This document shows, piece after piece, positions 1,765 to 38,371 of a stretch of 64,000 bases of DNA. Numbering within the stretch: position 1 is the first letter of the stretch; the number at the start of each line of letters is the position of its first letter. The position numbers were made by a program, and so were the translations under genes. The notes beneath the pieces were generated by a model, which saw only the letters and a program-made list of their open reading frames with translations, was not told where the DNA came from and did not search any database. This DNA is from Kofleriaceae bacterium (lineage in GTDB: Bacteria; Myxococcota_A; Polyangia; Haliangiales; Haliangiaceae), in contig JANTGM010000009.1 of the NCBI GenBank assembly GCA_024762925.1, positions 1 through 64,000 of the forward strand. Direction: 5' to 3'.

Positions 1765-3650
1765 AGATGCGTTGCCATAATTGCATAGGCCGCTGCACTG
1801 ATGACTCTTGCACTCTTCTTGGAGACAGAGTCAATGAGCATGCCTAACGTGCGCCGCCCGTCCATTGTGGCGAGACGCTTGCTCAACGATGGTCCGAGGC
1901 CATAGGATTCATACGGAGCATACTGAGCCAAGTTTGGAGCCAAATCGCGGCGAACCTGAATCCAGTCAGTCAGTCGAGTCTCTGGGATCAACTGCACCCC
2001 GCGAGCGACGATTCTGTGACTGCTAAGATGAAGAGCGACAGTGTCGTGGGGATTTTCTTGACCCGCTTGCCAAACAAAACGTCCGCAATCCCAACTGCAC
2101 GATCTTAGGAGTTTTTCTGATACTTGTGCTGCTAGTAAGTGGACGGCATCGACCGGTTTGAGCAAATGCAAACCGACCAAGGCCTGGCCGAGCTTGCCAC
2201 CAAAATGCGGCATGGTTGCAATGGCTCGGTCGAGCTGTTCTTGTGTGAGCAGACCCCGAAGTAAGAGGAACTGACCGAAGCGCTCTTGCGGATCGTTGGA
2301 AGCAACGAATATGGGGTGTCCATCGACAAAGTACGCCTGCTTGTTGATGTCGTCCCGCTCGAGCGTGAGTAGGCCGGTACGTTCATTGGCTGCAATCGCT
2401 CCCACCAGGTCGAGCGGCAAAAGAAACCCAAGCTCACCGTGCCCACAATCGAGGGCTTCACCCGCTTCGAGCGGGGTCTCGATCGTGACATCTTCATATT
2501 CGTCGGCAATTTGCTGCAGCACGTCGGGGCGACTGGTGATGACGGTGACACCCGCTGCACCCAGGGTCAGATCGATGGGCCTCACCGCTCCAAGCTCGAA
2601 CATCTCCCGCCCAACGTTGGCAGCACCTCTTGCTGCTAGCGAGAGGGCGCGAGTATTGGTGCCACTCAACGTGAGTGACCCTGTACCCTCGCCTTGGCTC
2701 GCTGGCTTAACGTAGCCTTCATCGGTGAGCTCTCGAATGTAAGACTTCAAGATGCTGGTGCTCATCCGCTGTTTGCCCGAAGCAAGCCATTCTGCGAGAG
2801 CATCGCGAAATTCACCTGCGGTGGCATACCGATCTTCTCGGTCTCGGGCTAGAGCCTTGCGGATGATTGCGAGCAGGCTCGGGTCGATGTGTTGGCCGTT
2901 TGCCTCCAGTCGACCTAAGTTCGCGCTTCGAACCATGAGCAGTACGTCGAGCTGATTGGTCGCTCGAAAGAGCCTTTTTGACATCAGCAGTTCTGCGAGG
3001 ACGATTGCAGTTGAGAATATGTCTGAGCGTCCATCGAGATGCTTTGCCTCAATCTGCTCAGGTGACATGTAACCGTACTTGCCCTTGAGGGTTCCCGTCG
3101 CGGTCTCTCGTTGGCGATCGTTGGCCCTGGCGATGCCAAAGTCTGCGAGTTTCACTCGGCCGTGCTGTGAGATCAGAACATTTCCGGGGGAAACATCTCT
3201 GTGAACAACACCCAGAGGGCGACCATTGATTTCCATGCTGTGGGCATAGTCGAGAGCTTCCAAGATGTGGCAGGTAATGTAGGCCGCGATCTCGGGTGGC
3301 ATTGTGGTGCGTCTCCGTGCTGCTCCCTTTAGAAGGCTAAGAAGATCTGGCCCCTCGATGTATTCGAGGATGATGTAGAGGCCATCCGAGTTCGCTTGGA
3401 AATCGAAGAGCTGAACAATGTTGGGATGGTCGAGTCGTGTTGAGATGCGAGCCTCGTCGACAAACATACTCACAAACTCGCGGTTTTCAGCGAGGTGCTT
3501 GTGCATTCGCTTGAGAACGATGGGGCGATCGAAACGCCCAGGTGTGATGCAACTGGCATGAAAGATCTCCGCCATGCCACCTGCGGCAAGGCGTTCTCCC
3601 AAGACGTACTGACCTAGCTGGGAGCTCTTCCCCAGCTTCTCATCTCCCAT
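1761..3650 (-). CDS. Ser/Thr protein kinase with C-terminal DUF4388-type domain
   Basis: Cytoplasmic eukaryote-like kinase of 629 aa. A Gly-rich loop near the N-terminus (GERLAAGGMAEIF) is followed by the ATP-anchoring Lys in VLKRM, the catalytic loop HRDVSPGN, DFGIAR and the activation segment GYMSPEQ. After about 330 residues, the remainder contains a DUF4388/PATAN-like helical region (RFGQFLLLRGLLTQEQL), typical of Myxococcota regulators. An upstream in-frame extension to 3869 is open, but it overlaps the lipoprotein gene, and the kinase domain begins just after the ATG at 3650. It lies between two envelope lipoproteins and the SDR in one operon, so it may sense envelope state. Confidence 0.88.
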   Translation of the reverse strand: MGDEKLGKSSQLGQYVLGERLAAGGMAEIFHASCITPGRFDRPIVLKRMHKHLAENREFVSMFVDEARISTRLDHPNIVQLFDFQANSDGLYIILEYIEGPDLLSLLKGAARRRTTMPPEIAAYITCHILEALDYAHSMEINGRPLGVVHRDVSPGNVLISQHGRVKLADFGIARANDRQRETATGTLKGKYGYMSPEQIEAKHLDGRSDIFSTAIVLAELLMSKRLFRATNQLDVLLMVRSANLGRLEANGQHIDPSLLAIIRKALARDREDRYATAGEFRDALAEWLASGKQRMSTSILKSYIRELTDEGYVKPASQGEGTGSLTLSGTNTRALSLAARGAANVGREMFELGAVRPIDLTLGAAGVTVITSRPDVLQQIADEYEDVTIETPLEAGEALDCGHGELGFLLPLDLVGAIAANERTGLLTLERDDINKQAYFVDGHPIFVASNDPQERFGQFLLLRGLLTQEQLDRAIATMPHFGGKLGQALVGLHLLKPVDAVHLLAAQVSEKLLRSCSWDCGRFVWQAGQENPHDTVALHLSSHRIVARGVQLIPETRLTDWIQVRRDLAPNLAQYAPYESYGLGPSLSKRLATMDGRRTLGMLIDSVSKKSARVISAAAYAIMATHL

Positions 3651-18677: not shown

Positions 18678-19475
18678 GTGTCCCCTCAATGTCTCGGCCT
18701 TCTCACCATCGTTGCGTTGGGCGCCTGTGCGGTGCAAGAACAACCAAGCTCAGCATCGTTCAACACACCCGTTTCGACTTGGTCCGTGTCACAAGCCACG
18801 CCAGGGACGGGGGCAACATCAAAACCCGTGTCTGTGCCACCAGAGGCGATGCTTCGGGCCGAGCAAGGGCAGACAAAGGCCGCTGCCCGCATCATCAAGT
18901 GGACCAAGACGCTTCGAGACTCTGTTGTAGAGACGAAGTACCAAGGTCGTACAGTGGTACGAGCTGAGAGCGGTTACTACGCTTGGGATTGTTCTGGCAT
19001 GAGTTCTTGGATCCTCAAGCGCAGCGCTCCTGCAGCTCTTCGCGCTCTTGAGAAGTCGCGCCCAGTTGCACGCGACTATTTCAAGATGATCGATAGGTCG
19101 CCGACCAAGAGGGCACGGCGAGGCTGGCAGAAACTGCCTCACGTTTCTGATGCACGCCCTGGAGACGTTTTTGCTTGGCTCCGATCTCCGATTTCAAAGT
19201 CGCGAGTCTCGGGGCATGTCGGATTCTTCGTCACAGCGCCGACACCTCTTCCTGATGCACCAAGTATCTACATTGCTCGAATCATGGATGCGACTTCGCT
19301 GCCGCATGGCGATGACACCAGACCGCAAGAGGGGGAAGGGGGATTTGGCTTTGGCACGATGCTCTTTGCAACCAATGAGCTGGGTGAGACTGTTGGCTAT
19401 GGCTGGCACGGTGAGCGCAGTTTGGAGTGGGGCTTTATGCCAGCAGAAGTACTCTATGGACGTGTCTCTCGGTAG
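18678..19475 (+). CDS. NlpC/P60-like cysteine hydrolase lipoprotein
   Basis: 265 aa, GTG start. Lipoprotein signal with ALGAC (Cys17), then a Ser/Thr/Pro spacer. The catalytic region is YYAWDCSGMSSW (nucleophile Cys in DCSG), RPGDVFAWLR, and GHVGFFV (His), the usual order for NlpC/P60 peptidases that cut cell-wall peptides. The insertions between the motifs are longer than usual. Probably acts on peptidoglycan at the outer or inner membrane. Confidence 0.78.
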   Translation: MSPQCLGLLTIVALGACAVQEQPSSASFNTPVSTWSVSQATPGTGATSKPVSVPPEAMLRAEQGQTKAAARIIKWTKTLRDSVVETKYQGRTVVRAESGYYAWDCSGMSSWILKRSAPAALRALEKSRPVARDYFKMIDRSPTKRARRGWQKLPHVSDARPGDVFAWLRSPISKSRVSGHVGFFVTAPTPLPDAPSIYIARIMDATSLPHGDDTRPQEGEGGFGFGTMLFATNELGETVGYGWHGERSLEWGFMPAEVLYGRVSR

Positions 19476-19598: not shown

Positions 19599-22500
19599 AT
19601 GGGGTGGCGCATATTCTTGGCAGTCGCGTGGTTTGGGCTCACAAGTGCCTGCAACGTAACGACCGGAGCTCCCGATGCCGGGGATGCTCCGATGAGCATT
19701 AGTGAAGCGATTGGACCAAACGGCGGAGAACTCAGGTTGGCTGGTGCTCGAGTGCAGTTGCCGGTAGGTGCGCTATCGAGCGAGTTGGTCTTGACGCTTC
19801 GGCGCGGGCTTGCGGTACCAGAGGGGCAAGAGGCGGTTTCAGAAGTATTCGTAATTGAGCCTGAGGGGCTAATCCTCGATGTTCCTGCGGTTGTCGAAGT
19901 CGTGGTCGCTGGAGATGATGTAGCGCTCTTTACCGTTGATGCTTTGGGAAGCAAGAACCTCAACGCCGAAACGAGAGAGGCGGGGCTGGAAGCCGAACTC
20001 GGAACGCTGGGCGTGATCTTTGGAGGCAAGAAGAACCCGTGCGGGCAGCTCCTTCAGGATGATGCCAACAACTGTGGCTCTTGCGGCCGCTCTTGCAATA
20101 ACAACAGTGGAATCGTGAGTTGTCGAGAGGGAAGCTGTGAGATTCGCTGCAACAATGGGCACGGCGACTGTGATGCTGATGCCGACACCGGTTGTGAGAT
20201 TGACCTGCGCGACGATGTCGACAACTGTGGAGGCTGTGGAGTTGTGTGCTCCGAGGATGCGATCTGTGAGCGGCAGGGTAATCGTTCCTTCTGCGCATGC
20301 ATCGAAGGCTTCGCTGGAGATGGCATCAACTGCGAAAAACTCCCAGACTGTCTAACAGGACATCGACGAGTAGAAGAAGCCTGCGTTGATATTGACGAGT
20401 GTGCTGAAGGGCTCGATTCTTGTGGCGACTCGGCGATCTGCGACAACACGGTGGGAGCATTCTCCTGTTCGTGCCCAGATGGATTTGAGCCTCTGCTTGG
20501 CACGTCTGGTTATGGCGATGGCGATGGCGGTTATGGCGGTGGCGATGGCGGTGGCGGTTATGGCGGTGGCGATGGCGGTTATGGCGGTGGCGATGGCGGT
20601 TATGGCGGTTATGGCGGTGGCGATGGCGGTGGCGGTTATGGCGGTGGCGATGGCGGTTATGGCGGTGGCGATGGCGGTTATGGCGGTGGCGATGGAAACG
20701 GTCCCAAGTTTGAGTGTGTCGATACGGATGAGTGTGCCATTGGTGCCAATAACTGCTCGAGTGATGCTGCGTGCCAGAATATTTCTGGTGGATTTCTATG
20801 CTCGTGCAAGCCGGGTTTTGAGGGCGACGGAGTAGATTGCCTCGACATCGACGAGTGTCATCTCGGAACAGATTCTTGTGCGACCGATGCCATCTGCACA
20901 AACACGCTAGGTAGCTTCACATGCGAGTGCAAGAGTGGCTATGTCGGAGATGGTTCGTTCTGTCAGGAGGTGGACGAGTGCGCGGGCAACGTCGCTGGAT
21001 GCGATGAGCACGCCACATGTGAGAATACTCCTGGTGCCTTCATTTGCTCATGCGTGGCGGGCTATGAGGGTAATGGAAACACCTGCTTGGATGTGGATGA
21101 GTGCGCACAAGGGATTGATACGTGTGATTCCAATGCGCAGTGCATAAATCGCGATGGCGGTTTTGACTGCACGTGTGAACCTGGCTACGAGGGAGACGGC
21201 CAGAGCTGCACAGACGTCGACGAGTGCGCCACCAAAGTCGCACAGTGCAGCCCAGATGCGCACTGTGAGAACGTTTCTGGCTCTTTTGCGTGTGAGTGCG
21301 ACTCTGGTTTCCGAGGAAATGGTTTTGCATGTGATGACGTTGACGAGTGTTTTGAAGAAAGTGATACATGTGCCGACGATGCAACGTGCAGCAATCGATC
21401 GGGAGGATTTGATTGTGAGTGCAACGCGGGATTTATTGGCGATGGGTTCGCTTGCCAAGATGTGGATGAATGCCAGGGAGACAATCTCTGCGCTGAGAAC
21501 GCGAGCTGTGAAAACACCGCAGGCGGCTACCAGTGTCAATGCAATCCCGGTTTCTCAGGAAACGGCGAGACATGCGACGACATCGATGAGTGTCAGGAGG
21601 TCGGTGTTTGCGGAGCTTTTGGTGTTTGTGAGAACGTCATTGGAAGCTTTGGCTGCGCGTGCGAATTGGGCTTCGAGCGCGTTGGTGAGCTGTGTGTGGA
21701 TATTGACGAGTGTCTGACCGAAGAGTGCGGTGAGCATGGGCACTGTGAGAACTCGCCAGGATCGTTTTCTTGCCAGTGTGACGAGGGTTTCGTTGGTGAC
21801 GGCATCACGTGCAACGACGCTGCAGAGCGCGTGATTCTCGTGAAAGCCGGTGGCGCACACACCTGCGCGCTCTTCGACAACAAGATGGTTCGCTGCTGGG
21901 GCTGGGGCATCTACGGCGAGCTTGGGTACGGCAACACAGACGATATTGGCGTCACGAACGAACCTGCGGATTCTCCCTACGTACAGCTTGGAGTGGCGGC
22001 GAGAGACTTGGACCTCGGCGTAACGCACACCTGCGCAATTCTTGAAGACGACACACTTCGGTGTTGGGGACGAAACTTCTATGGCTCGCTGGGCCTCGGC
22101 AATACCAATGATATTGGTGATACTGAACTTCCGAATTCTTCTGTGCTTGCTCTTGGCGGCAAGCGAGTGGCACAGGTTGCGGGCGGGGGGGAGCACACCT
22201 GTGCCCTGGATTTTGAAGGCAACGTGTTTTGCTGGGGGCTCGGTATCGATGGACAACTGGGGAATGGAAATGTGACACCCGTTGGCGATGACGAGGATCC
22301 TCTGTTCAGCGGATCAGTAAATCTCCTAGGATCAGCAACACAGGTTGTCGCAGGTCGAGACCACAGCTGCGCGCTTCTCGAAGATGGCACCGTTCAGTGT
22401 TGGGGGCGCGGGGAGCACAACCCAACAGGGTACGGGCACACCGAGAACATTGGCGATGATGAGCTACCGGTCGATGCTGGAGCGGTTGACGTTGGTGGCA

Positions 22501-25500
22501 CAGTACTTCAGCTCACCGCAGGCTGGTACCACACCTGCGCGCTGCTCGACGATGCGAGCGTTCGCTGTTGGGGCTATGGAAATCTAGGCGCTCTAGGATA
22601 TGCGAATCGCGACAGTGTTGGGGATGATGAATTGCCAGCTGATGTTGGAACGGTTGACGTTGGTGGCCCTGTGAAGCAGGTCGTTGCTGGCACCTACCAT
22701 ACGTGCGCGCTGCTCGAGAATGGCAATGTTCGCTGTTGGGGGTATGGAGGCGATGGTCAACTTGGCTACGGAAACACCAATACGATTGGCGACAATGAAC
22801 ATCCGTTTGAAGCTGGTGACGTTGACGTTGGTGGGCGAGTCACTCAGCTCACCGCTGGCTCGTTCCACACGTGCGCACTCTTGGACCGTGGCACCGTTCG
22901 CTGCTGGGGGTCGCGTGAGCACGGGCAGCTTTGTTATCAGGGGTCAGAAAATGTAGGAGACGATGAGCGGCCCGCGCGCATGGGAGATTGTCCCATTCTG
23001 GCCGCCGTGTGCCCTGGAGGGTTTCGACTCGGCGAAGATGGTGTGACATGCATGGATGTTGATGAGTGCGAACTTGGCGTGGATGCATGCAGTGCGCAGG
23101 CTACATGTAGCAATACCGAGGGCCGTTACGAGTGTGAATGCCATGCTGGGTATGAGGGCGACGGATTCGAGTGCGAAGACGTGGATGAGTGTGGAGATGA
23201 AACCGACGATTGCGCGGACTTCGCCACGTGTACGAATACGGATGGCGGGTTTTCGTGTGCATGCAGTGAGGGGTACTTTGGTGACGGAGTTAGCTGCGGA
23301 GGCGCATGTGCAACGTCAAACGATGAGTGCGATGAGAACGCCGAATGCACCGACGGTGATGGTACGTATAGCTGCGAGTGCCTGCCAGGGTTCGTTGGAG
23401 ACGGTTTCCTCTGCGCTGACATCGATGAATGTGCACTTGACCTCGATACATGTGATGTGAACGCTGGATGCGTGAATACACCAGGCGCTTACGAATGTGT
23501 ATGTCTTGAGACCTTCGTAGGCACCGGTGAAACATGCGCTTGTGAAGACGGCTACGAAGACGTCGGAGGGGCATGCGCCGACATCAACGAGTGCTCTCGA
23601 GGCCTAGATGATTGTGCGAATGATGAACTGTGCCTAAACACCGATGGCGGCTTTGAGTGCATTGGGGCAGGGGAGAATCCCGAGGACCCGGAGGAACCAC
23701 TCGTCTGCCCTGATGGCTACGTGCTCACGGGTGCCAGTGCACCAGGAGTCTCTCAGGGAACGATTGACGGCTTTGCCTCAGTGACCATGGAGCAGGGCGC
23801 GAACGATGCGATTGCCACCGCACAGCGGATTGTTGGCCCAACAACAGTGAGAGGAGCCGCCGATGCTGATAGCGATGCGATCGACATTTACCGCGTTCGC
23901 CTCCTTGCGGGGCAGGGAGCATCCCTCTTCATCAGTGCGGACGGCGTTCATAACGATCTAGAACTTCACTTGCACGACCTTCAAGGAGAACCAGTTCAGG
24001 GTTCTTCTGGCGGAGCAATTCGTTCACTCAGCACCTCGAGGTTTGAATCGGTGGTGGCAGAGGCCAGCGGGACCTACCTGGTTGTCGTACAGGCAAGCGC
24101 AGGAACTTCATCGTATTCGCTCGTTATCGGTGAGCCTCTTGGGGCAAGCGCTGCCCTCGGAAATATGGCAGAGCCCGAGTTCGTTCCCGGCGAGGTGATC
24201 GTGCGATTCGACCCTCGTGCCAACATGGCGCATAGCATCGCTACTGTCGCTCAATCGATGGGAACAAAGCAGGCGAGTGGCCAAAATGGTGGCATGACAC
24301 TCATGCGCCGGGCTGCGGGGCGCGTTGCGACGATGGCCACGGATCCGTCATCGGGGCTAAACATCCCCAACGATGCCGTGGCGATGGCAAAGACTTGGTC
24401 GCGGCGCTCTGATGTCCTAAGTGCATCTCCGAACTACCTCTACAAAGCGAGCGCAGTTCCAAACGATGAACACTTCGAAAGACAGTGGAACTACCCGGCG
24501 ATTCGACTTCCACAAGCGTGGGACAATGTTCCCGATGCAAGTGCCATCACTGTGGCTGTGATCGACACCGGAGTTATTCTGAATCACCCAGATCTCGATG
24601 ATGTTCTGGTTCCAGGATTCGATTTCATTCGCGATCCAAGCCGAGCACGCGATGGCGATGGCATCGACCCTGACGCGGATGATGTCGGGGATTCGGCAAG
24701 TCCTGGTGCGAGTTCCTATCATGGTACGCATGTTGCCGGGACGGTGTCTGCGGAGACGAACAATGGCATTGGTGTTGCGGGTGTCGCCCAGGGCGCTCGC
24801 ATCATGCCCCTCCGCGCTCTTGGTGCAGGAGGCGGAAGTAGCTATGACATCATGCAGTCGGTTCGCTTTGCTGCGGGCTTGCCAAACGATTCGGGAACGG
24901 TTCCGGATCGTCGTGCTGACGTTATTAATATGAGTCTTGGCGGCCCCGGACGAGATCCGGCCTTTGAAGCGCTAATTGCTGAAGTTCGTGCACTTGGTGT
25001 TGTGGTTGTTGCTGCTGCAGGTAACTCCAGCTCTTCTGTCTTGGCGTATCCAGCTTCGTATGAGGGAGTCATTTCGGTGAGCGCGACCGACGTTGAAAAT
25101 GCTCTGAGTTACTACTCAAACTTCGGTGGTGCGATTGACGTGGCGGCACCAGGTGGCGACGTACGCGTCGATCTCAATGGCGATGGTGAGGGCGACGGCA
25201 TTCTCTCTACGCTGGGTGCGGATACGAGTAGCGGAATTGCGCCTATCTACAAGCACTATCAAGGGACATCTATGGCTTCACCGCACATGGCTGGCGTTGT
25301 GGCACTGATGCGTGCTGCGAATATCGAACTTGGCCCAAGCGACATCGACGCTCTGTTGGCATCGGGTCTCATTACTACTGACCTTGGAGCCGCAGGGCGT
25401 GACGACAGCTTTGGACACGGCCTTATCAACGCGGAAGCGGCGGTGTTGCGTGCGCAAGAGTTTGTGGCGGGCGCGCCTCCTTCCGAGCAACCGTCACTGA

Positions 25501-28500
25501 TTGCTGAGCCATCCGCGATGAGTTTCCTCGACCCAGCCGAGACCAGCCAAAGCCTTGTTGTGCGAAACTCTGGCGAGGGGGCGATTGTCATTGATGCACC
25601 CACCGTCGACGCTCCATGGCTTCGCTTCGGTGCGGTCGAAATCATCGATGATGTTCACAGCTATCCGGTCGTGATCGACCGTGCGGGCCTTGAGGTTGGC
25701 AGTTACTCGGCGACCATTACGGTAACCTCTTCCGCCAACACGGCTTCGGTTCCCGTGGTCATGGAGGTTGCGGCGCCCCAGTGCATCGATGTTGATGAGT
25801 GTGAGCTGAACCTCGATGATTGTGCGAATCCAGAGCAAAACGGGGATTGTAGAAACCTGCCAGGCACGTTCGAGTGCTTCTGTTTCGAGGGGTACGAAGG
25901 AGATGGTAAGACTTGTTCTGATGTTGACGAGTGTGAAGCCGGCACTGACAACTGCAGCGATTTCGCGGTTTGCACGAATGCCGACCCGGGCTTCACGTGT
26001 GAGTGCCTCCCAGGGTTTGAAGGCGATGGAATCGTCTGTTCTCCCCCAAATGAGTGCGAACTCGGTTTCGACAACTGTGATGAGGATGCCACCTGCACTG
26101 ACACGTTCGAGGGCTTCGAGTGTTCCTGCAATGACGGCTATGCCGGAGATGGTGTTGAGTGTGAGGACATTGATGAGTGCGAAGACGGCAGTCACGCGTG
26201 TGATGCGAATGCCTTTTGCACCAACACCATCGGGGCCTACGAGTGCACCTGTTCTCCGCACTTCTCAGGGACTGGAGCAGGCTGTATCCCTGATGATGGC
26301 TGTCTGAGCCTTGAGAACTTCGAAGCCGATTGGCCGAATGCCACATGGCGAGAACCTCACGGTCTTGCGGTTGGCGGAATTGTTGCGGCGAGTTCTGCGA
26401 GAACGGGCAAGGTTGGCCTCACCCAGCTGGACGGAAGTGCTTTGCACACGCCCACTGCCCTCGGCGAGAGCCAAGATGCACTCGGAGCTTGGATACGCCT
26501 AGGGGATGTCGGAGCAATCGCGTCCCTTGTCTTCGGAAGTAGCGATGAAGGGGGCAGCTTCCTACAAGCGGATGGCAGCGGCGCGCTCGGTTTGTATCGA
26601 TGGACTCGAAGCGGGGAGCCGGCGCTCATCAACGAGGTCATAGCGCCTCTTCCAATTGGCGAGTGGCTCTATCTCGACGTTTTCTTTCACGGAGATGGTG
26701 ACGTTACCGCCAGTCTCTTTGGGCCCGATGGCGCTAGCACTGTTGCCGGCTTGAGCGGCTCTGTTGGAGAACTCTCAACGGGAAATGCGGGCCTTGAGTC
26801 CAACGGAGGAGCGGATCTCGATGGGGTGGTTGCATGCGCGTTCTTGCCACTGGTCGATGAATGCGAACTTGGTCTCGATGAGTGCGACGAAAACGCGACC
26901 TGCAATGATCTGCTAGGCGGCTATGAGTGTGTCTGCAACGCATCCTTTGTGGGAGATGGCTTCACATGCGAGGACGAGAATGAGTGCGAGACAGGCAATA
27001 ACAGCTGTAGCGCAAATGCGATTTGCACCAACACGATTGGGGCCTATGTATGTGCCTGTGCCGAGGGCTTTGAGGGAGATGGACTCATTTGCACAGACGT
27101 CAACGAGTGTGAACGCGGAACCTTCTCTTGCGACGATAACGCTACCTGCGTGAACACGTTGGGCGCCTATGAGTGTGCTTGCAACGCCGGCTATGAGGGG
27201 GATGGCAAGACGTGCTCCGATATTGATGAGTGTGCAATTGGCACCGATACCTGTGCCGACGATGCCGAGTGCATCAACATCCCCGGTAGCTACGATTGCT
27301 CGTGCCTTGAGGGTTTTGAAGGGAATGGCTTTGTTTGTGATGATGTTGATGAGTGCGCTCTTGGCCTCGACTCATGCCACGATGCAGCGACCTGCTTCAA
27401 CGCCGAGGGCAGCTACACATGCGAGTGCAACGGCGGCTGGGACGGCGATGGCTTTGAGTGTTTTGACATCGACGAGTGTGGGCTGGGTACAGATACCTGC
27501 GATCCACTGGCGGAGTGCTCCAATTCGCAAGGCTTCTTTACTTGTGTGTGCCCAGATGGCTTCACAGGAGATGGCTTCTCATGCATCGATGTTGATGAGT
27601 GCAGCGCCGGTCTCGACAACTGCGATTCGAATGCGGACTGCGACAACACCGCTGGCGAATTCACCTGCACTTGTAAGCAAGGCTTCCAAGGAAACGGCTT
27701 CAGCTGCGCCGATGTTGACGAATGCGCACTTGGTACCGATACATGCAGCGATGATGCGATTTGCCTCAACACCGACGGCGGGTTCGCTTGCGAGTGTGCG
27801 CCCGGCTTTGAAGGCACCGGGTTTGTCTGTAACGACATTGATGAATGCGCGCTTGGCACTGACACCTGCAGTGAGCGCGCGCTGTGTACCAATACAATCG
27901 GAGCGTTTGCATGCGATTGCCGGCAAGGCTTTGAAGGCGATGGCTTCACTTGCCTCGATGTCGATGAGTGCGCAACCGGCACCTTTGACTGCCCGCTGAA
28001 TTCCTCGTGCAGCAATACCGCTGGCGGCTTTGACTGCAACTGTCGCCGCGGCTATGACCTTGATGATGCCGGTGTATGCGTCGATATCGCGATCAAGGCA
28101 CAGAGCATTGGCGCGGGGGATGCGCATACCTGTGCGCTCATGAACGAAGGCGTCGTAAAGTGCTGGGGCTCTGGAAGCAACGGGCGAACTGGTCACGGCA
28201 ATACGCAAAACATTGGCGACGATGAAATCGCAGGAGACGCGCCCATCGTCAACATCGCAGAAGAGGAAGTGGTGCAGTTGGCAGTTGGTGGGGCCCACAA
28301 CTGTGTGCTTCTTGACGATGGGACGATTCGATGCTGGGGGCTTGGTCAACACGGTCGCCTAGGACACGCCGATAGCGAGGATGTTGGTGACGATGAAGTT
28401 CCTGCTGATGTAGGAAAAGTTCCGATGCCAGCAAGTGCGGTCGAGCTGGCCTTGGGACAAAAACACAGCTGCGCACTCCTTGAGGGAGGCGTCGTGAGTT

Positions 28501-29261
28501 GCTGGGGCGACAACTCCTTCGGGCAACTGGGTGCGGGCCTACAAGCCGATCCCATTCAGCGCAACGACGCTGTTGATGTTGGTGGTCCAGTGACAGCCAT
28601 TGCTGCCGGTGACTATCACACTTGTGCACTTCTCGATTCCGGCGAAGTTGTGTGTTGGGGGCTTGGCTCCTTCGGCCGGTTGGGCTACGGAAATAGCAAC
28701 GCAGTCGGCCTATTGAAGACCCCTGCGGACGCAGGCGCCGTCTCTTTGGGCGCCAGCGCAATTGCTTTGGCAGCCGGCGCAAACCACACATGCGCTTTGC
28801 TTGTTGGAGGCGAGCTTCGCTGCTGGGGGCGGGCGCTCTTTGGTGCGATCGGAACGGGCGTTCCAGGCAATGTTGGAGACGATGAAGTGCCAACGGCTGT
28901 TGCGCCAGTTGTGCTAGACGCAGCGCCAATCACGGTCACCGCTGGTAGCTCGCACACATGTGTAGCCTTTGCTGACGGTGAGGTGCAGTGCTTTGGGCTT
29001 GCGGCACAGGGGCAGCTTGGCTACGGAAACAAACTGAACATTGGTGACAATGAAGCTCCCAATCTTGCGGGCTTTGTTGATGTTGGCGGGCGGGTGCGTG
29101 AAATCGACGCCGGAGCCTTTCACACCTGTGTCGTCACGGACGTTTCCGAGGTGCGATGTTGGGGCAATGGAAGTCTTGGCCAACTTGGTTACGGTACGAC
29201 CTTCAATGTAGGCGATACGGAGTCTCCAGCTGATGTCGATGTCGTAAGGCTCGCGCCTTAA
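19599..29261 (+). CDS. Giant mosaic lipoprotein: EGF-like, RCC1 propellers and subtilisin-type protease
   Basis: 3220 aa, with a signal ending LTSAC (Cys18). Order: ZU5-like region (about 33-140); Cys-rich NCGSCG/NCGGCG modules; EGF-like modules 1-11 (to about 741) with a Gly/Asp/Tyr repeat inserted at 304-366; RCC1 propeller 1 (about 745-1135, seven HTCAL...CWG blades); EGF 12-16; PPC-like domain (about 1398-1514); S8 propeptide and protease (Asp1656, His1708, Asn1809, Ser1891 in GTSMASPH); a BACON/Ig-like domain (about 1964-2058); EGF 17-20; a LamG-like segment (about 2234-2418); EGF 21-30; RCC1 propeller 2 (about 2831-3220, seven blades). Most EGF modules carry the calcium-binding DxDEC start. 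Probably a surface adhesin-protease for prey, kin or substrate contact (inference). Confidence 0.93.
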   Translation: MGWRIFLAVAWFGLTSACNVTTGAPDAGDAPMSISEAIGPNGGELRLAGARVQLPVGALSSELVLTLRRGLAVPEGQEAVSEVFVIEPEGLILDVPAVVEVVVAGDDVALFTVDALGSKNLNAETREAGLEAELGTLGVIFGGKKNPCGQLLQDDANNCGSCGRSCNNNSGIVSCREGSCEIRCNNGHGDCDADADTGCEIDLRDDVDNCGGCGVVCSEDAICERQGNRSFCACIEGFAGDGINCEKLPDCLTGHRRVEEACVDIDECAEGLDSCGDSAICDNTVGAFSCSCPDGFEPLLGTSGYGDGDGGYGGGDGGGGYGGGDGGYGGGDGGYGGYGGGDGGGGYGGGDGGYGGGDGGYGGGDGNGPKFECVDTDECAIGANNCSSDAACQNISGGFLCSCKPGFEGDGVDCLDIDECHLGTDSCATDAICTNTLGSFTCECKSGYVGDGSFCQEVDECAGNVAGCDEHATCENTPGAFICSCVAGYEGNGNTCLDVDECAQGIDTCDSNAQCINRDGGFDCTCEPGYEGDGQSCTDVDECATKVAQCSPDAHCENVSGSFACECDSGFRGNGFACDDVDECFEESDTCADDATCSNRSGGFDCECNAGFIGDGFACQDVDECQGDNLCAENASCENTAGGYQCQCNPGFSGNGETCDDIDECQEVGVCGAFGVCENVIGSFGCACELGFERVGELCVDIDECLTEECGEHGHCENSPGSFSCQCDEGFVGDGITCNDAAERVILVKAGGAHTCALFDNKMVRCWGWGIYGELGYGNTDDIGVTNEPADSPYVQLGVAARDLDLGVTHTCAILEDDTLRCWGRNFYGSLGLGNTNDIGDTELPNSSVLALGGKRVAQVAGGGEHTCALDFEGNVFCWGLGIDGQLGNGNVTPVGDDEDPLFSGSVNLLGSATQVVAGRDHSCALLEDGTVQCWGRGEHNPTGYGHTENIGDDELPVDAGAVDVGGTVLQLTAGWYHTCALLDDASVRCWGYGNLGALGYANRDSVGDDELPADVGTVDVGGPVKQVVAGTYHTCALLENGNVRCWGYGGDGQLGYGNTNTIGDNEHPFEAGDVDVGGRVTQLTAGSFHTCALLDRGTVRCWGSREHGQLCYQGSENVGDDERPARMGDCPILAAVCPGGFRLGEDGVTCMDVDECELGVDACSAQATCSNTEGRYECECHAGYEGDGFECEDVDECGDETDDCADFATCTNTDGGFSCACSEGYFGDGVSCGGACATSNDECDENAECTDGDGTYSCECLPGFVGDGFLCADIDECALDLDTCDVNAGCVNTPGAYECVCLETFVGTGETCACEDGYEDVGGACADINECSRGLDDCANDELCLNTDGGFECIGAGENPEDPEEPLVCPDGYVLTGASAPGVSQGTIDGFASVTMEQGANDAIATAQRIVGPTTVRGAADADSDAIDIYRVRLLAGQGASLFISADGVHNDLELHLHDLQGEPVQGSSGGAIRSLSTSRFESVVAEASGTYLVVVQASAGTSSYSLVIGEPLGASAALGNMAEPEFVPGEVIVRFDPRANMAHSIATVAQSMGTKQASGQNGGMTLMRRAAGRVATMATDPSSGLNIPNDAVAMAKTWSRRSDVLSASPNYLYKASAVPNDEHFERQWNYPAIRLPQAWDNVPDASAITVAVIDTGVILNHPDLDDVLVPGFDFIRDPSRARDGDGIDPDADDVGDSASPGASSYHGTHVAGTVSAETNNGIGVAGVAQGARIMPLRALGAGGGSSYDIMQSVRFAAGLPNDSGTVPDRRADVINMSLGGPGRDPAFEALIAEVRALGVVVVAAAGNSSSSVLAYPASYEGVISVSATDVENALSYYSNFGGAIDVAAPGGDVRVDLNGDGEGDGILSTLGADTSSGIAPIYKHYQGTSMASPHMAGVVALMRAANIELGPSDIDALLASGLITTDLGAAGRDDSFGHGLINAEAAVLRAQEFVAGAPPSEQPSLIAEPSAMSFLDPAETSQSLVVRNSGEGAIVIDAPTVDAPWLRFGAVEIIDDVHSYPVVIDRAGLEVGSYSATITVTSSANTASVPVVMEVAAPQCIDVDECELNLDDCANPEQNGDCRNLPGTFECFCFEGYEGDGKTCSDVDECEAGTDNCSDFAVCTNADPGFTCECLPGFEGDGIVCSPPNECELGFDNCDEDATCTDTFEGFECSCNDGYAGDGVECEDIDECEDGSHACDANAFCTNTIGAYECTCSPHFSGTGAGCIPDDGCLSLENFEADWPNATWREPHGLAVGGIVAASSARTGKVGLTQLDGSALHTPTALGESQDALGAWIRLGDVGAIASLVFGSSDEGGSFLQADGSGALGLYRWTRSGEPALINEVIAPLPIGEWLYLDVFFHGDGDVTASLFGPDGASTVAGLSGSVGELSTGNAGLESNGGADLDGVVACAFLPLVDECELGLDECDENATCNDLLGGYECVCNASFVGDGFTCEDENECETGNNSCSANAICTNTIGAYVCACAEGFEGDGLICTDVNECERGTFSCDDNATCVNTLGAYECACNAGYEGDGKTCSDIDECAIGTDTCADDAECINIPGSYDCSCLEGFEGNGFVCDDVDECALGLDSCHDAATCFNAEGSYTCECNGGWDGDGFECFDIDECGLGTDTCDPLAECSNSQGFFTCVCPDGFTGDGFSCIDVDECSAGLDNCDSNADCDNTAGEFTCTCKQGFQGNGFSCADVDECALGTDTCSDDAICLNTDGGFACECAPGFEGTGFVCNDIDECALGTDTCSERALCTNTIGAFACDCRQGFEGDGFTCLDVDECATGTFDCPLNSSCSNTAGGFDCNCRRGYDLDDAGVCVDIAIKAQSIGAGDAHTCALMNEGVVKCWGSGSNGRTGHGNTQNIGDDEIAGDAPIVNIAEEEVVQLAVGGAHNCVLLDDGTIRCWGLGQHGRLGHADSEDVGDDEVPADVGKVPMPASAVELALGQKHSCALLEGGVVSCWGDNSFGQLGAGLQADPIQRNDAVDVGGPVTAIAAGDYHTCALLDSGEVVCWGLGSFGRLGYGNSNAVGLLKTPADAGAVSLGASAIALAAGANHTCALLVGGELRCWGRALFGAIGTGVPGNVGDDEVPTAVAPVVLDAAPITVTAGSSHTCVAFADGEVQCFGLAAQGQLGYGNKLNIGDNEAPNLAGFVDVGGRVREIDAGAFHTCVVTDVSEVRCWGNGSLGQLGYGTTFNVGDTESPADVDVVRLAP
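20508..20697 (+). repeat. In-frame minisatellite coding for GGYGGGD units
   Basis: About 190 bases of near-perfect repeats of a 21-base unit (GGCGGTTATGGCGGTGGCGA plus T) and shorter derivatives, all multiples of three. They encode Gly/Asp/Tyr only and sit inside the loop between the fifth and sixth Cys of the second EGF-like module. Repeat number is expected to vary by slippage without breaking the frame. Confidence 0.9.
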
Positions 29262-33158: not shown

Positions 33159-33905
33159 ATGATTTTTCGATTGACCTGCGCGCTTGCGCTAACTGTTGCG
33201 ACCGTATCTCTAACCCAAGTCGTAGCAGTTCGCGACGCCAAGGCCTGAGGACTCTCTCCCCCTGTTGGTCCAACGGGGTTGCCCTATGAATGCGATGGAG
33301 ACTCTGGCTCAAAGTCTTGGCGCGCGGGTGTCAGCGGTGGCGCGTTCTCAACAACGATCGTTTTCGAGGGAGAGCAGAACGTCGACATCAAGCAGGCCAG
33401 TGTCAGTGCCACGCTCGGCTACCAGGTGTCAACGCGGTGGGGCCTTGTCGGTTCGGCCGGAGGAATCCTTGGAGGCACGGTAAATCACGGGACAGAAGGT
33501 GACATTGGCTCAGGCCTTGTCGCTTCTGTGAGTGGCACGTATCTGGCTCTGTACGAGTCTGCGAAGCTTCCCTTCATTCTTGGGAGCCTAACCATTGGTC
33601 ACTCGAGAACGACGGCCGTTTCCGACGATGCCATGCGTCACGATTGGATTGCCTACGATGTGCGCGCCGGAGTCATGGTGGGCAAGACAATCGGTGATCG
33701 ATTCGTTCCCTTTGCCAGTGCACGCGCCTTTGGTGGCCCTGTGGATTGGAAGCTCGGTGGCGAGGATGTCATTGGGAGCGACAAGTATCACTACACCGTT
33801 GGTCTTGGTGCGACGTACCGAATTCCTGGCAAGGTCGACTTCTTCGCTGAAGTACTGGGCCTAGGCGAGAACAGCGTGAGTCTTGGTGGTAGCGTCGCGT
33901 TCTAG
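33159..33905 (+). CDS. Outer-membrane beta-barrel protein with in-frame TGA (possible selenocysteine)
   Basis: Reading from ATG 33159, 29 codons give a good signal peptide (MIFRLTCALALTVATVSLTQ then VVAVRDAKA). Then TGA (33246-33248) interrupts the frame, and 218 further codons in the same frame encode a typical barrel (alternating hydrophobic strands, glycine-rich turns, final Phe in GGSVAF). Both halves need each other: the barrel has no other signal or ATG start (nearest is TTG 33279). A bulged hairpin follows the TGA at the distance seen in bacterial SECIS elements. Alternatives are a nonsense mutation or sequencing error. Ends in a CTAG shared with the convergent kinase gene. Confidence 0.65.
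33246..33278 (+). promoter_or_regulatory. SECIS-like hairpin after in-frame TGA
   Basis: CCCC (33259-33262), a bulged T (33263), GTTG/CAAC and GGGG (33275-33278) build an 8-bp stem with loop GTC; opening one pair gives loop GGTCC over three pairs and a bulged U. Counting from the U of UGA, loop G23 and U24 fall at the same positions as in E. coli fdhF, and the bulged U is at 18 rather than 17. Structure is read by eye, not folded by computer. Confidence 0.45.
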
Positions 33906-35857
33906 CGACTAGGCTCGTCTCCAAGTCCATTCAGAGTATCTCTTACACGAGCGAGTAATCGATGCGAGCTAAATGGCTTGGCGAGAAACGGGAAACTCGG
34001 CGCACTTGGAGCGTGAATCTGTGCTGCATAGGCAGACATGCAGAGAATTTTCATATTGTGCTGCGACCGAAGTTGAGCAGCGAGTTCGTGACCCTGCATG
34101 GCGGGTAGGCCCTCATCAGTGAGAAGCATGTCAAAGCGAGGCGTTCTCTCAACAAGTTCAAGAGCGTCTTCCCCATCTTTGGCACACGCAACTTGGTAGC
34201 CAGCTCGGGTGAGAGCTCGCTCGACGAAGGTGCGAACTTGCTCATGATCCTCTACAACGAGGATTCTGGCACCAACCCGGTTTTGATACGGCATCGTTGG
34301 AGCCTCTGAGAATTCTTCTTCCTCTAGTTCAGAGCAGGGGAGAGTAATTTCGAATGTTGTGCCGGCACCGAGTACAGACTCAACGCGAATTTCGCCGTTG
34401 TTGGAACGAACAATGCCATAGACCGTGGCAAGGCCAATGCCCGTGCCTCGGTCTGGCCCTTTCGTCGTGAAGAATGGATCAAAGATGCGACTCGCTGTTG
34501 CCTCATCCATGCCAGTGCCTGTGTCCGTCACGCGCAGGATTGCGACGACTTGCCCACCAGCTTCCTTGTGCGAATCAGCCGAGATGTGGAGGTCGCCACC
34601 ACCGGGCATTGCGTCGCGAGCGTTCAGTGCCAGATTTGTGAGTACCTGCTCTAGTTGGCCGCGGTCCATTAGCAGTAGTGGCAAATCGTCTGCGACAGAG
34701 ATGGTCACATGGATTCGTTCGGTGAGTGTGCGGCTGAGCATGCGCGCAACGCCTTCAATCTCTCGCCGCAGGTCAAGCATGTGTCGCGATGGCAGCTGCC
34801 GTTGCCCAAATCCGAGAAGCTGTCGTGTGAGGCTCTTACTGCTCTTGATTGCCTGCCAGAGTTCTTCTGATGCATAGCGAATGTCTTCGTTCGCGTGCTC
34901 GGGGTTCTCTTCTACCCAATCGGAGATTTCGCCCGACGCACCCATGAAGACAACAAGCAGGTTGTTGAAGTCATGGGCAATTCCTGCCGCCAGTTGCCCA
35001 AGTGCTTCCATCTTCTCCGAGGCTCGCAATCGTTTGGCGGTGCTCTCTCGCTCTTCTTGCATCCGCACTCGCTCTGATAAGTCGCGAATCACTTCAACAC
35101 ACGCAGCCTTGCCGTTGAGAGTTGTCTCCCCACGGGAAACCTCGACCAGGAACTTCGCGCCATCGCGTCGAATGGCCTCATAGATCTTTGCGGTTGGACC
35201 CTCAGCTTGAATTTGCAGCGCGTGCTCGGTTTCCTCAAGCAGCGAAGAACGAGAAAGTCCCTCGAGCGATTCCACAGGGTACCCATACATGCGTGCTGCA
35301 GCATCGTTGGCGGTTCGGACTTGTCCACTTGCGCTATCGACGACGAGAATTGCGTCAGAAGATGCGTGGAAGAGAGCTCGGTGCTGCTGCTCGCTGGCCC
35401 GCAGTTGATCGACCAGCTCTCGCTCGTGTCGGTTTTGTCTCGTCTTGGCAACAGCATTGCGAGCCTTGAACACCAAGGTGCTCAATTGAAAGGGCTTGGG
35501 AACATAGTCAAAGGCGCCTGCCTCAACCGCTTCAATGGCTGAGTCCATTGAAGGGTACCCCGTGATCAGAATGAACTCTTGGTTGGGGCATTGCTGGCGC
35601 AGGCGACGGATGGTGGCCAATCCCGATCCATCGGGAAGGTTCTTGTCAACGATGACCAAATCGAACGGGCCGTCCTCGTTGAACCGCTGGATGCCCTGAG
35701 CTACCGAGCTTGCGCGGCAAATGTCGACTTCAAGGATGGCTTCGATCGCATCGACGATGGCGGGCTCATCATCAATGACCAGCACCTGCGCGTCGGCTAG
35801 GTAGGCAAGTCCATGCTCAAGTAGGTTTGGCGCGTTATGAGAGCTATCGCTCGACAT
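33902..35857 (-). CDS. Hybrid histidine kinase: REC-PAS-HisKA-HATPase-REC
   Basis: 651 aa, no membrane segment. An N-terminal receiver (VLVIDDEPAIV, phospho-Asp in LVIVDKNLPDG, Lys in YVPKPF) leads into a PAS domain (about 155-280), an H-box [11 protein letters not shown]-box NLALNARDAMP, G-boxes DTGTGMD and GTGIGLATVYGIV, and a C-terminal receiver (LVVEDHEQV, LLTDEGLP, LAKPFS). Cytoplasmic phosphorelay hub with no cognate regulator next to it. Its 5' side borders the CTCTTCCGG repeat array. Confidence 0.92.
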   Translation of the reverse strand: MSSDSSHNAPNLLEHGLAYLADAQVLVIDDEPAIVDAIEAILEVDICRASSVAQGIQRFNEDGPFDLVIVDKNLPDGSGLATIRRLRQQCPNQEFILITGYPSMDSAIEAVEAGAFDYVPKPFQLSTLVFKARNAVAKTRQNRHERELVDQLRASEQQHRALFHASSDAILVVDSASGQVRTANDAAARMYGYPVESLEGLSRSSLLEETEHALQIQAEGPTAKIYEAIRRDGAKFLVEVSRGETTLNGKAACVEVIRDLSERVRMQEERESTAKRLRASEKMEALGQLAAGIAHDFNNLLVVFMGASGEISDWVEENPEHANEDIRYASEELWQAIKSSKSLTRQLLGFGQRQLPSRHMLDLRREIEGVARMLSRTLTERIHVTISVADDLPLLLMDRGQLEQVLTNLALNARDAMPGGGDLHISADSHKEAGGQVVAILRVTDTGTGMDEATASRIFDPFFTTKGPDRGTGIGLATVYGIVRSNNGEIRVESVLGAGTTFEITLPCSELEEEEFSEAPTMPYQNRVGARILVVEDHEQVRTFVERALTRAGYQVACAKDGEDALELVERTPRFDMLLTDEGLPAMQGHELAAQLRSQHNMKILCMSAYAAQIHAPSAPSFPFLAKPFSSHRLLARVRDTLNGLGDEPSR

Positions 35858-35961
35858 CGTCGTTATAGGGAAATCGGACAGTATGCTGAAGTTCTGTAGT
35901 GGTGGAGTACACTTTCTGCGACATGCTTTGCCCGCGTATTTCTCCGTTTCTTGGGTAGTTG

Positions 35962-36235
35962 GCTCTTCCGGCTCTTCCGGACGGCTCTTCCGGACGGTTC
36001 TTCCGGCTCTTCCGGCTCTTCCGGCTCTTCCGGCTCTTCCGGCTCTTCCGGACGGTTCTTCCGGCTCTTCCAGCTCTTCCGGGCTCTTCCGGGCCGAGGG
36101 TTGTTCTCACGGCTGAGCGGCTCCATGTCCGCCGCTCTTCCGGACCGGGCTCTTCCGGACCGGGCTCTTCCAGGCCGGGCTCTTCCGGACCGAGGGTTGC
36201 CGCTCTTCCGGACCGAGGGTTGTTCTCACGGCTGA
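35962..36235. repeat. Tandem array of GCTCTTCCGG-type units
   Basis: Around 25 imperfect copies of the 9-base unit CTCTTCCGG, alone or spaced by GACGG, GACCGGG or similar to make 9-, 14- and 16-base periods. Nearly every unit carries GCTCTTC or GTTCTTC. A 40-base segment (CCGAGGGTTGTTCTCACGGC and onward to TCCATGTCCGCC) occurs twice within and just after it, at 36094-36133 and 36213-36254. It lies about 105 bases upstream of the REC-PAS-kinase gene. Confidence 0.85.
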
Positions 36236-36426
36236 GCGCGGCTCCATGTCCGCCAACGCCGAATCTGACGTCTCAAGCCGCAAATCGACTGTCCATTTGC
36301 CCTATTGCAAGCCTAGACATGAGAGTTTTTCTCTCGGTCCCACGCAGCAGACGCAACGAAGCACCAAAGCGACTTCCCTTGGTGCTTTCCTCGCCGCTGT
36401 TGCTCCGCCCGCGCCTCCGAAGAGGT

Positions 36427-36770
36427 CAGGTGGGAGCGGGCTCGACGAGCACGTTCCAGCGCTGAACAGCGAGATAGCTGCCATAGGGAAAGACAACGCC
36501 CTCTTCGCCCGCTTTCCTTCGAAGCCGGGCCTCTTCGTGCCTCTCCCAAAAGCGTCGTAGCCGTGCGATTGCGGTGAGTCGATCCTTCTTCACCCGAGCA
36601 CCGATGAGAGGCGCGAGCCTAAAGAGCTTGTGCGGCGATTTGGGATACGACTTCGGATCTGCTTTCTGATCCGTGACATCACAGCGGAACGGCTTGCCCG
36701 AGCATCACGCATTTCGCGATGTTCCTTCTCATAGGCAAGCACTCGTGTTTCTAGCAAGTGGTCCAGCTCA
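36427..36770 (-). pseudogene. Transposase-like C-terminal remnant, frameshifted, copy 1
   Basis: Read on the minus strand, FELDHLLETRVLAYEKEHRE continues after a one-base shift into KPFRCDV...PKSYPKSPHKLFRLAPL and ends RLRRFWERHEEARLRRKAGE then VVFPYGSYLAVQRWNV. The final FPYGSY resembles the C-terminus of REP-associated (Y1-type) transposase relatives in Myxococcota; I am not sure of the family. Bases 36597-36720 are duplicated at 40205-40330. Confidence 0.4.
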
Positions 36771-36820
36771 AAGCGCTGCCAAATGACCGGTACACATCAG
36801 ATTTGGGTTAGAATTGAACT

Positions 36821-38371
36821 GTGATCTCCTCGAATGAAAAGCTCGCCGTCTTCCAGCGAGGTCCCGTGGTGCTCTTTCAGTGGCACAACGCCGAAGGCTG
36901 GCCCGTTCATTGGTGCTCTCCCAACGTAAAAGACATTTGCGGTTACAACGCCGAGGACTTCATGTCGGGAACGGTGGCATATGCTGGTTTAATACACCCA
37001 GACGACATCGATCAGGTCACCCAAGAAGTCACGGACGCACTCGCCAAGAACCTCGACTCCTTTGAACACGAGCCCTATCGCATCATTCATCGCGACAAGT
37101 CCGTTCGCTGGCTCCACGACGTCACCCACCTACTTCGCAAGGGCGACGAGGTTACACACTTTGTAGGCTACGTTGTGGATATCACCAGCCGCATGAATGT
37201 GATGCAGAGGTCCATCGACCTGGAAAAGCAACTTCTGCACGCCCAAAAGCTTGAAAGCCTGGGTGTGCTCGCCGGTGGCGTAGCCCACGATTTTAACAAT
37301 CTGCTAACGGGCATATTGGGCGAGGCAACTCTGGCCCGATTGGAGTACGGGACACCCAACGGTGAAACTCTTAGAAACATCGATCAAATCGAACTTCTCG
37401 CGATGCGGGCCGCTGAGCTCACAAGGCAGCTTCTAGCATACTCCGGTAAGGGGCGGTTCGTCGTGCAGCCGCTAGACCTCAGCGAACTCATGCGCGAAAT
37501 CACCAGCATGCTCAACGTCGCTATTTCAAAAAAAGCAGCACTTGAGTTACACCTCTCAGACGATCTGCCCGCCATTGCCGCTGACCAGGCACAAATCCAG
37601 CAGATCGCGATGAACCTACTCACCAACGCCTCCGATGCCTTAGGCGAGGAGCAAGGGGTGATCCGAATAAAGACGGGTCGTGAAACCGTATCGGCGGACA
37701 CGCTGCGAGAAGTCTATGGCGCCAAGGACTTGCCTTCAGGTGTGTACGTCACGCTGGAAGTATCTGACAACGGCTGCGGAATTTCGGCCGAGACCCGAAA
37801 AAGACTCTTTGACCCATTTTTTACCACCAAGGCGACTGGCCGCGGCTTGGGGATGTCTGCAGTTCTAGGAATTGTTCTGGGGCACCAGGGAGCAATTCGT
37901 GTGTACTCTGAACCAGGCCAAGGAACCGCATTTAAACTACTGTTCCCTGCCATCGAAGACACTGCGATTGCTCTCCGCAGTAGTGAAACCAAGAAGCAAT
38001 GGAAAGGCACAGGCACAGTGCTCGTCGTCGATGACGAACCTTCTGTTCTCAGCGTGGCAACGCGAATGCTAACGCACCTTGGTTTTGAAGCCATCGTCGC
38101 AAGCAATGGCCAAGAAGCCCTTGCGATGTATCAACAACACTCCGACGATATCGTTTTGGTACTACTCGATATGATGATGCCTGTCATGAATGGGAGAGAG
38201 ACCCTAGCCGCTCTGCGGCGCATCACTCCGGATCTGCCCATCGTCATGTCCAGCGGCTTCAACGAACAAGAGGCCATCAGCCGCATCGCAGCACGAGGCA
38301 TGACCTCCTTCCTGCAAAAGCCCTACGAGTTGGAAGACCTAGAAGCCGCTGTGCGCGCTGTAATCCACTAG
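36821..38371 (+). CDS. Hybrid histidine kinase: PAS-HisKA-HATPase-REC
   Basis: 516 aa, soluble, GTG start. PAS_3-like sensor at about 20-125 ([15 protein letters not shown]...[10 protein letters not shown], a YKGLIHPDD-type motif). H-box [17 protein letters not shown]-box [12 protein letters not shown]-boxes DNGCGIS and [13 protein letters not shown], then a receiver with [11 protein letters not shown], phospho-Asp in [13 protein letters not shown] and Lys in [11 protein letters not shown]. No neighbouring response regulator. Preceded by the decayed element rather than an operon partner. Confidence 0.92.

Follow-up and report, generated by a model that had tools for sequence, protein, structure and literature searches.

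A giant putative surface lipoprotein of a Kofleriaceae bacterium, best read as a protease cassette inside an older double-propeller EGF stalk

Introduction

The best match in the Protein Data Bank to the protease described here is Pro21717 of Pseudoalteromonas arctica (PDB 5yl7), which, like AprV2/BprV, has a subtilase catalytic domain from which a prosequence is removed, as is predicted for the present protein. Pro21717 differs in carrying its PPC domains after the catalytic domain, and in being a secreted enzyme with no scaffold. Its prosequence is removed autocatalytically during refolding (PMC5821440).

Eukaryotic RCC1-like propellers (UVR8, the HERC2 RLD, RCC1) have the seven-bladed fold also found here (TM about 0.8 to UVR8), whereas the propellers of the present protein appear to be an extracellular form with one cysteine pair per blade. 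There is no sign in them of Ran exchange or light sensing, and Ran exchange or chromatin binding would not be expected of them outside the cell. In the myxobacterium Myxococcus xanthus, the RCC1-repeat protein MXAN_0889 occurs in outer membrane vesicles, together with S8 proteases and many lipoproteins; the text of that paper makes no mention of EGF (PMC4158809). The present protein shares with it the description as an RCC1-repeat protein. By analogy, because these vesicles hold an RCC1-repeat protein, S8 proteases and lipoproteins, a surface or vesicle location would be plausible for the present protein too. A search of one literature collection for RCC1 with EGF in myxobacteria, or for RCC1 in Myxococcota, returned no paper.

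The present study characterised one gene of the window, i.e. the whole 64,000-nucleotide stretch of a Kofleriaceae genome that was analysed (GCA_024762925.1, contig JANTGM010000009.1). A preliminary description had proposed a lipoprotein combining two RCC1 propellers, about 30 EGF modules and a subtilase. The product is best read as a giant surface lipoprotein in which a protease cassette appears to lie inside an older double-propeller stalk that had no protease.

Results

Architecture of the protein

The open reading frame contains zero internal stops, and a TGA stands immediately 5' of its ATG. Together with the same order of parts in an independent metagenome-assembled genome (MAG) and purifying selection on the frame, this upholds the single 3220-residue chain proposed earlier. 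A Pfam scan matched EGF_3 and EGF_CA (28 stretches each), RCC1_2 (14), RCC1 (8) and Peptidase_S8, in agreement with three of the domain types named in the preliminary description. The parts are as follows (window coordinates, strand, description and basis); G331 and G653 denote two homologs described below, and L039 is the ortholog.

19599..29261, +, whole gene, 3220 codons plus stop (list of open reading frames; ortholog L039)
19599..19652, +, putative signal peptide and lipobox, TSA-C18 (sequence; LAGC in homolog G331)
19701..19931, +, ZU5-like domain, residues about 35-111 (via homologs G331 and G653)
20034..20333, +, STIG1-like Cys-rich module and first EGF, residues 146-245 (weak Stig1 match)
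20388..20717, +, EGF2, its Cys5 (292) and Cys6 (373) separated by a Gly/Tyr/Asp repeat (cysteine pattern)
20718..21812, +, N-terminal EGF array (Pfam, cysteine pattern)
21813..23003, +, RCC1 propeller 1, seven blades (Pfam, motifs, AlphaFold2, Foldseek, tree)
23055..23591, +, middle EGF array (cysteine pattern)
23580..23708, +, split EGF, first part, Cys1-Cys5 at residues 1332, 1339, 1345, 1354 and 1370 (alignment to the intact G331/G653 module)
23784..24098, +, PPC domain, first of the inserted cassette (ortholog and stand-alone relative)
24132..24452, +, internal subtilisin prodomain, predicted cleavage near 1618/1619 (Fervidolysin_NPro-like; 5yl7 alignment)
24453..25478, +, S8 subtilase catalytic domain, D1656, H1708, N1809 and S1891 (Pfam, alignment)
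25494..25772, +, BACON_2-like Ig domain, end of cassette (BACON_2, AlphaFold2, fold search)
25782..25784, +, Cys2062, Cys6 of the split EGF (cysteine pattern, homolog and ortholog alignment)
25788..26300, +, four EGF modules behind the cassette (cysteine pattern)
26301..26837, +, LamG-like domain, C2235...C2413 (Laminin_G_3 under cut-off; same place in G331 and G653)
26850..28088, +, C-terminal EGF array, 10 modules (cysteine pattern)
28089..29258, +, second seven-bladed RCC1 propeller, at the C-terminus (Pfam, motifs, tree)

The N-terminus shows, by eye, a basic residue, a hydrophobic stretch and a lipobox of the less common form TSAC. It is plausible as a lipobox, and the homolog G331 has LAGC there; export and lipidation are predicted. 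The domain behind it, overlooked in the preliminary description, appears ZU5-like by homology: Pfam gave no ZU5 match in the window segment itself, and the orthologous segments of G331 and G653 exceed the cut-off of 21 bits with scores of 30.8 and 31.1, window residues 11-247 being 41% identical to G331. The STIG1-like module had also been passed over; its label is weak (Stig1 E 6.2 in the window and 0.0036 in the G331 segment, both under cut-off), and all 12 cysteines of this module and the first EGF are kept in the ortholog.

Six-cysteine EGF modules were counted by pattern as 28 clean ones, one with the Gly/Tyr/Asp insert and one split, close to the number first given; 23 of the 28 clean modules carry both calcium-binding signatures which, with the EGF_CA matches, bears out the calcium-binding type. 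The whole protein has 229 cysteines, i.e. that of the lipobox and 228 others. The HTC...CWG blade motif occurs exactly seven times at residues 754-1090 and seven times at 2843-3175, as previously counted, and the 14 RCC1_2 matches reach E 5e-113. For block 1, the one modelled with AlphaFold2, seven times three strands were obtained (pLDDT 85, pTM 0.88), and Foldseek aligned the model with the seven-bladed UVR8 at TM 0.76-0.81. The proposed LamG-like segment fared less well: Laminin_G_3 matches weakly in the window (E 0.0042, 17.7 bits vs a cut-off of 27.6) and the corresponding segments of G331 and G653 gave no Laminin_G match in Pfam; the domain position is common to all three proteins, and the label is weak.

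The mixture had been called rare, which holds for the complete combination and not for RCC1 or EGF modules singly, both common in relatives: RCC1 proteins are near-universal (54 of 56 related genomes), EGF_CA modules are present in 28 of the 56, and EGF-RCC1 mixtures without protease were found in the genomes G051, G331 and G653.

The gene stands alone: neighbouring genes are unrelated, with no operon partner hinting at function, and a promoter and terminator scan gave matches no commoner than chance. Just upstream on the same strand lies a 265-aa putative lipoprotein (18678-19475, +) whose DCSG...GDVFAW...GHVGFFV pattern resembles an NlpC/P60-type motif, with no Pfam match. Elsewhere in the window, positions 33902-38371 hold a pair of genes for hybrid histidine kinases with PAS, HATPase and response regulator domains, one gene on each strand. 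A low-complexity stretch (35844-36235), where one strand can be read as (KSR)n or (PEE)n and the opposite strand as (ALP)n or (GSS)n, sits just upstream of the kinase gene at 33902-35857.

An ortholog in a second Kofleriaceae genome

The same order of domains, beginning with the STIG1-like region and running through the final blade, was found in the Kofleriaceae MAG NORP324 (L039, identical with contig G001:C335), at about 60% identity overall and with the cassette at the same place. That contig starts within the gene, so the comparison covers the STIG1-like region onward, the ortholog N-terminus lying outside it. The S8 domain is the most conserved region (77%), followed by RCC1 block 1 (71%) and block 2 (59%), with the EGF arrays at 55-67%; the prodomain (51%), LamG-like (48%), BACON-like (45%) and linker plus PPC (41%) regions diverge further. 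Among the aligned cysteines 221 of 222 are kept, and C1370 and C2062 are among these. Saturation of synonymous sites is complete or almost complete, whereas pN is 0.16-0.41 and lies well under pS in every domain; purifying selection acts on the frame. EGF_CA had no match in G002, which is 86% complete and is the third genome of this genus.

The ortholog carries two frameshifts, near position 2987 of L039 (in an EGF module) and near 6380 (in the LamG-like domain), which lend some colour to the idea that the fusion is a misassembled chimera or a decaying pseudogene. That idea is nevertheless very improbable. The L039 frames are open and conserved on either side of both frameshifts, as assembly indels would give, and such indels are the likely, though unproven, explanation; the window frame is fully open as one gene, with pN well under pS throughout; and an assembly chimera is rejected by the same order in an independent MAG.

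Protease-free relatives and the insertion site

With the LamG-like segment as query, two distant scaffold homologs were recovered within the class, from two genera that share a different family: G331 (contig C451, 2810 aa) and G653 (contig C109, 2446 aa). Both run lipobox, ZU5, STIG1-like module, spacer, EGFs, seven-bladed RCC1, EGFs, LamG-like domain, EGFs and a second seven-bladed RCC1. They thus resemble the window protein in all these parts and differ from it in having no PPC-prodomain-S8-BACON cassette and an intact EGF at its site. A shorter relative in G051 has the order EGF, RCC1 (seven blades), EGF, RCC1 (seven blades). The propeller tree separates all first blocks from all second blocks, with branch support of 87/90, and did so in every bootstrap tree looked at (200 of 200), so that the double propeller is older than these lineages.

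The alignment to G331 breaks cleanly. Window residues 205-1386 match G331 391-1576 (46%) and residues 2061-3218 match 1611-2809 (42%), with no G331 counterpart for 1387-2060 in the alignment. At the junction both homologs have an uninterrupted EGF with the same unusually long Cys4-Cys5 spacing:

G331: ...FRC-EGEPAPI-C-PDGFRLSGDT-C-VDVDEC
G653: ...FEC-IDGEPVA-C-PTGFAANDQGH-C-VDVDEC
Window: ...FEC-IGAGENPEDPEEPLV-C1370-PDGYVLTGAS...(cassette)...APQ-C2062-IDVDEC

Given the intact module of the homologs and the complete lack of cysteines within the cassette, C1370 and C2062 are Cys5 and Cys6 of a single EGF; this split module had also been overlooked. In the standard EGF fold Cys5 pairs with Cys6, and a C1370-C2062 disulfide should therefore form. 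The AlphaFold2 model of the split EGF with the cassette, built from three sequences, reached pLDDT 40, and closure of this pair is a sequence argument. Residues between Cys1 and Cys6 make up 76% of the EGF arrays; since chance alone would place an insertion there about three times in four, its position is no proof of selection for tethering.

A Cys5-Cys6 loop may tolerate inserts more generally, as the repeat of EGF2 is located in one too. It is a tandem Gly/Tyr/Asp repeat at 20513-20687, with 27-, 21- and 78-base periods, and is missing from the ortholog. G331 has an (SDGD)n spacer behind its first EGF.

A cassette that lies between propellers 1 and 2, in a scaffold found elsewhere without it, could also be a maturation or shedding device, in which the protease chiefly trims its own or neighbouring scaffold and has no role in nutrition. 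Disulfide-rich EGF arrays are probably protease-resistant, which would leave the linkers as targets. The G331 and G653 scaffolds, however, have no in-chain protease, so that trimming is not needed for maturation there, and this reading is regarded as doubtful, the least favoured of those that take the chain as genuine.

The protease cassette and its relatives

The cassette is a complete protease unit. Peptidase_S8 matches residues 1649-1941 (E 3.6e-54), the Asp-His-Ser triad named in the preliminary description (1656, 1708, 1891) is present and retained in the ortholog, and the oxyanion N1809 can be added to it. The PPC and BACON domains, also proposed earlier, fall below the Pfam cut-offs in the window and above them in stand-alone relatives: PPC reaches E 1.6e-4 in the ortholog (under cut-off) and 2e-8 in a stand-alone relative, and BACON_2 E 0.031 in the window. 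The AlphaFold2 model of the BACON-like domain has pLDDT 76-88 across most of its length and an Ig/ASH-like fold (Z about 10). Between PPC and S8 lies a Fervidolysin_NPro-like segment (E 0.0019, slightly under cut-off), and the first residue of crystallised mature Pro21717 aligns opposite window residue 1619. By these matches the S8 domain carries its own prodomain within the chain, a point the preliminary description had overlooked.

An internal prodomain raises the alternative that self-cleavage frees the C-terminal half, with its protease, LamG-like domain, EGFs and second propeller, to the medium or to prey in the manner of ordinary secreted subtilases, much as mature Pro21717 is secreted without prosequence and PPC domains (PMC5821440). 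Against this stand C1370 and C2062: the cysteine count and the intact module of the homologs leave them as each other's sole partners, and their pairing would hold the halves together. Parts could still be released through further cuts elsewhere, and release of the whole half is considered unlikely, if somewhat less so than the trimming role above.

The cassette aligns over nearly its full length with stand-alone gammaproteobacterial proteins of about 840-1100 aa (38-51% identity). Among the genomes searched, which are samples and not all known genomes of these groups, such a protein occurs at E < 1e-100 in 18 of 143 Gammaproteobacteria, and of the 317 genomes that belong to the window's class but not to its genus, 4 have full-length stand-alone units. 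The stand-alone PPC-prodomain-S8-BACON lipoprotein proteases, mainly from Gammaproteobacteria (e.g. L099, L100, L102 and L103), share cassette order, sequence and triad with the window protein; they differ in having their own signal peptide and an extra C-terminal domain, and in lacking EGF and RCC1. Because that post-BACON domain is absent from the window, where the cassette has 2061 as its last residue, next to Cys6 of the EGF, the window cassette is derived from the stand-alone group and is not a stand-alone member of it.

In the S8 tree, the window protein and its ortholog group with 21 gammaproteobacterial proteins (support 99/97). Grouping of the window S8 with the 28 first-sampled Myxococcota S8 domains was rejected (AU p < 0.001), and a clade of the 21 gammaproteobacterial proteins excluding the window was not (p 0.34); once the four Myxococcota stand-alone units are included, the deep order is ambiguous. 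Acquisition of a gammaproteobacterial-type protease is likely, the donor not being fixed, and transfer from Gammaproteobacteria is only suggested.

A separate giant S8 family of about 2940-2970 codons occurs in several families of the class (L089, L090 and L091, i.e. G080:C337, G076:C6 and G034:C151; also G074:C119 and G086:C147). The examined parts of L089, L090 and L091 contain no EGF or RCC1 motifs.

Full-size scaffolds with the LamG-like domain were found in only four genomes, two with the cassette and two without, which does not by itself fix gain over loss. Gain is the preferred direction, since few other members of the class have the cassette, which elsewhere is common as a free protein. 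The protease is better read as a later cassette added to an older, protease-free scaffold than as an integral part of the chain.

Discussion

The reading favoured here, at a probability of roughly 0.6, is a calcium-binding EGF/propeller stalk with an inserted protease that cleaves itself and is tethered by a disulfide. The stalk would be lipid-anchored, with calcium-binding EGF rods bearing the two seven-bladed propellers and the LamG-like domain. In an ancestor of the genus, a whole stand-alone protease would have entered one EGF at its Cys5-Cys6 loop. After export, the prodomain would aid folding of the subtilase and then, as homology to subtilases suggests, be cut by it near residue 1618. 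Such a cut gives computed halves of 163.7 and 163.5 kDa (about 164 kDa each), which the C1370-C2062 pair would keep joined; as these two cysteines are predicted to pair, the active protease would stay on the stalk, between the propellers. A polymer or a partner surface is the probable ligand of the propellers, and the enzyme may serve in the digestion of nearby protein. A role in feeding, or in the adhesion and digestion of other cells raised in the preliminary description, is unproven.

The stronger form of this reading, namely that a zymogen inserted in the terminal disulfide loop of an EGF makes an obligatory self-cleavage that nicks the host protein and cannot release it, is put forward more tentatively, with somewhat less than even confidence. 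It gives an idea of how an enzyme obliged to cut itself may stay attached to the cell surface. The comparison also offers a before-and-after view, with a protease-free double-propeller EGF scaffold on one side and, on the other, a genus in which a whole protease appears to have been spliced into one module, and so shows how a giant eukaryote-like matrix protein may be assembled in bacteria.
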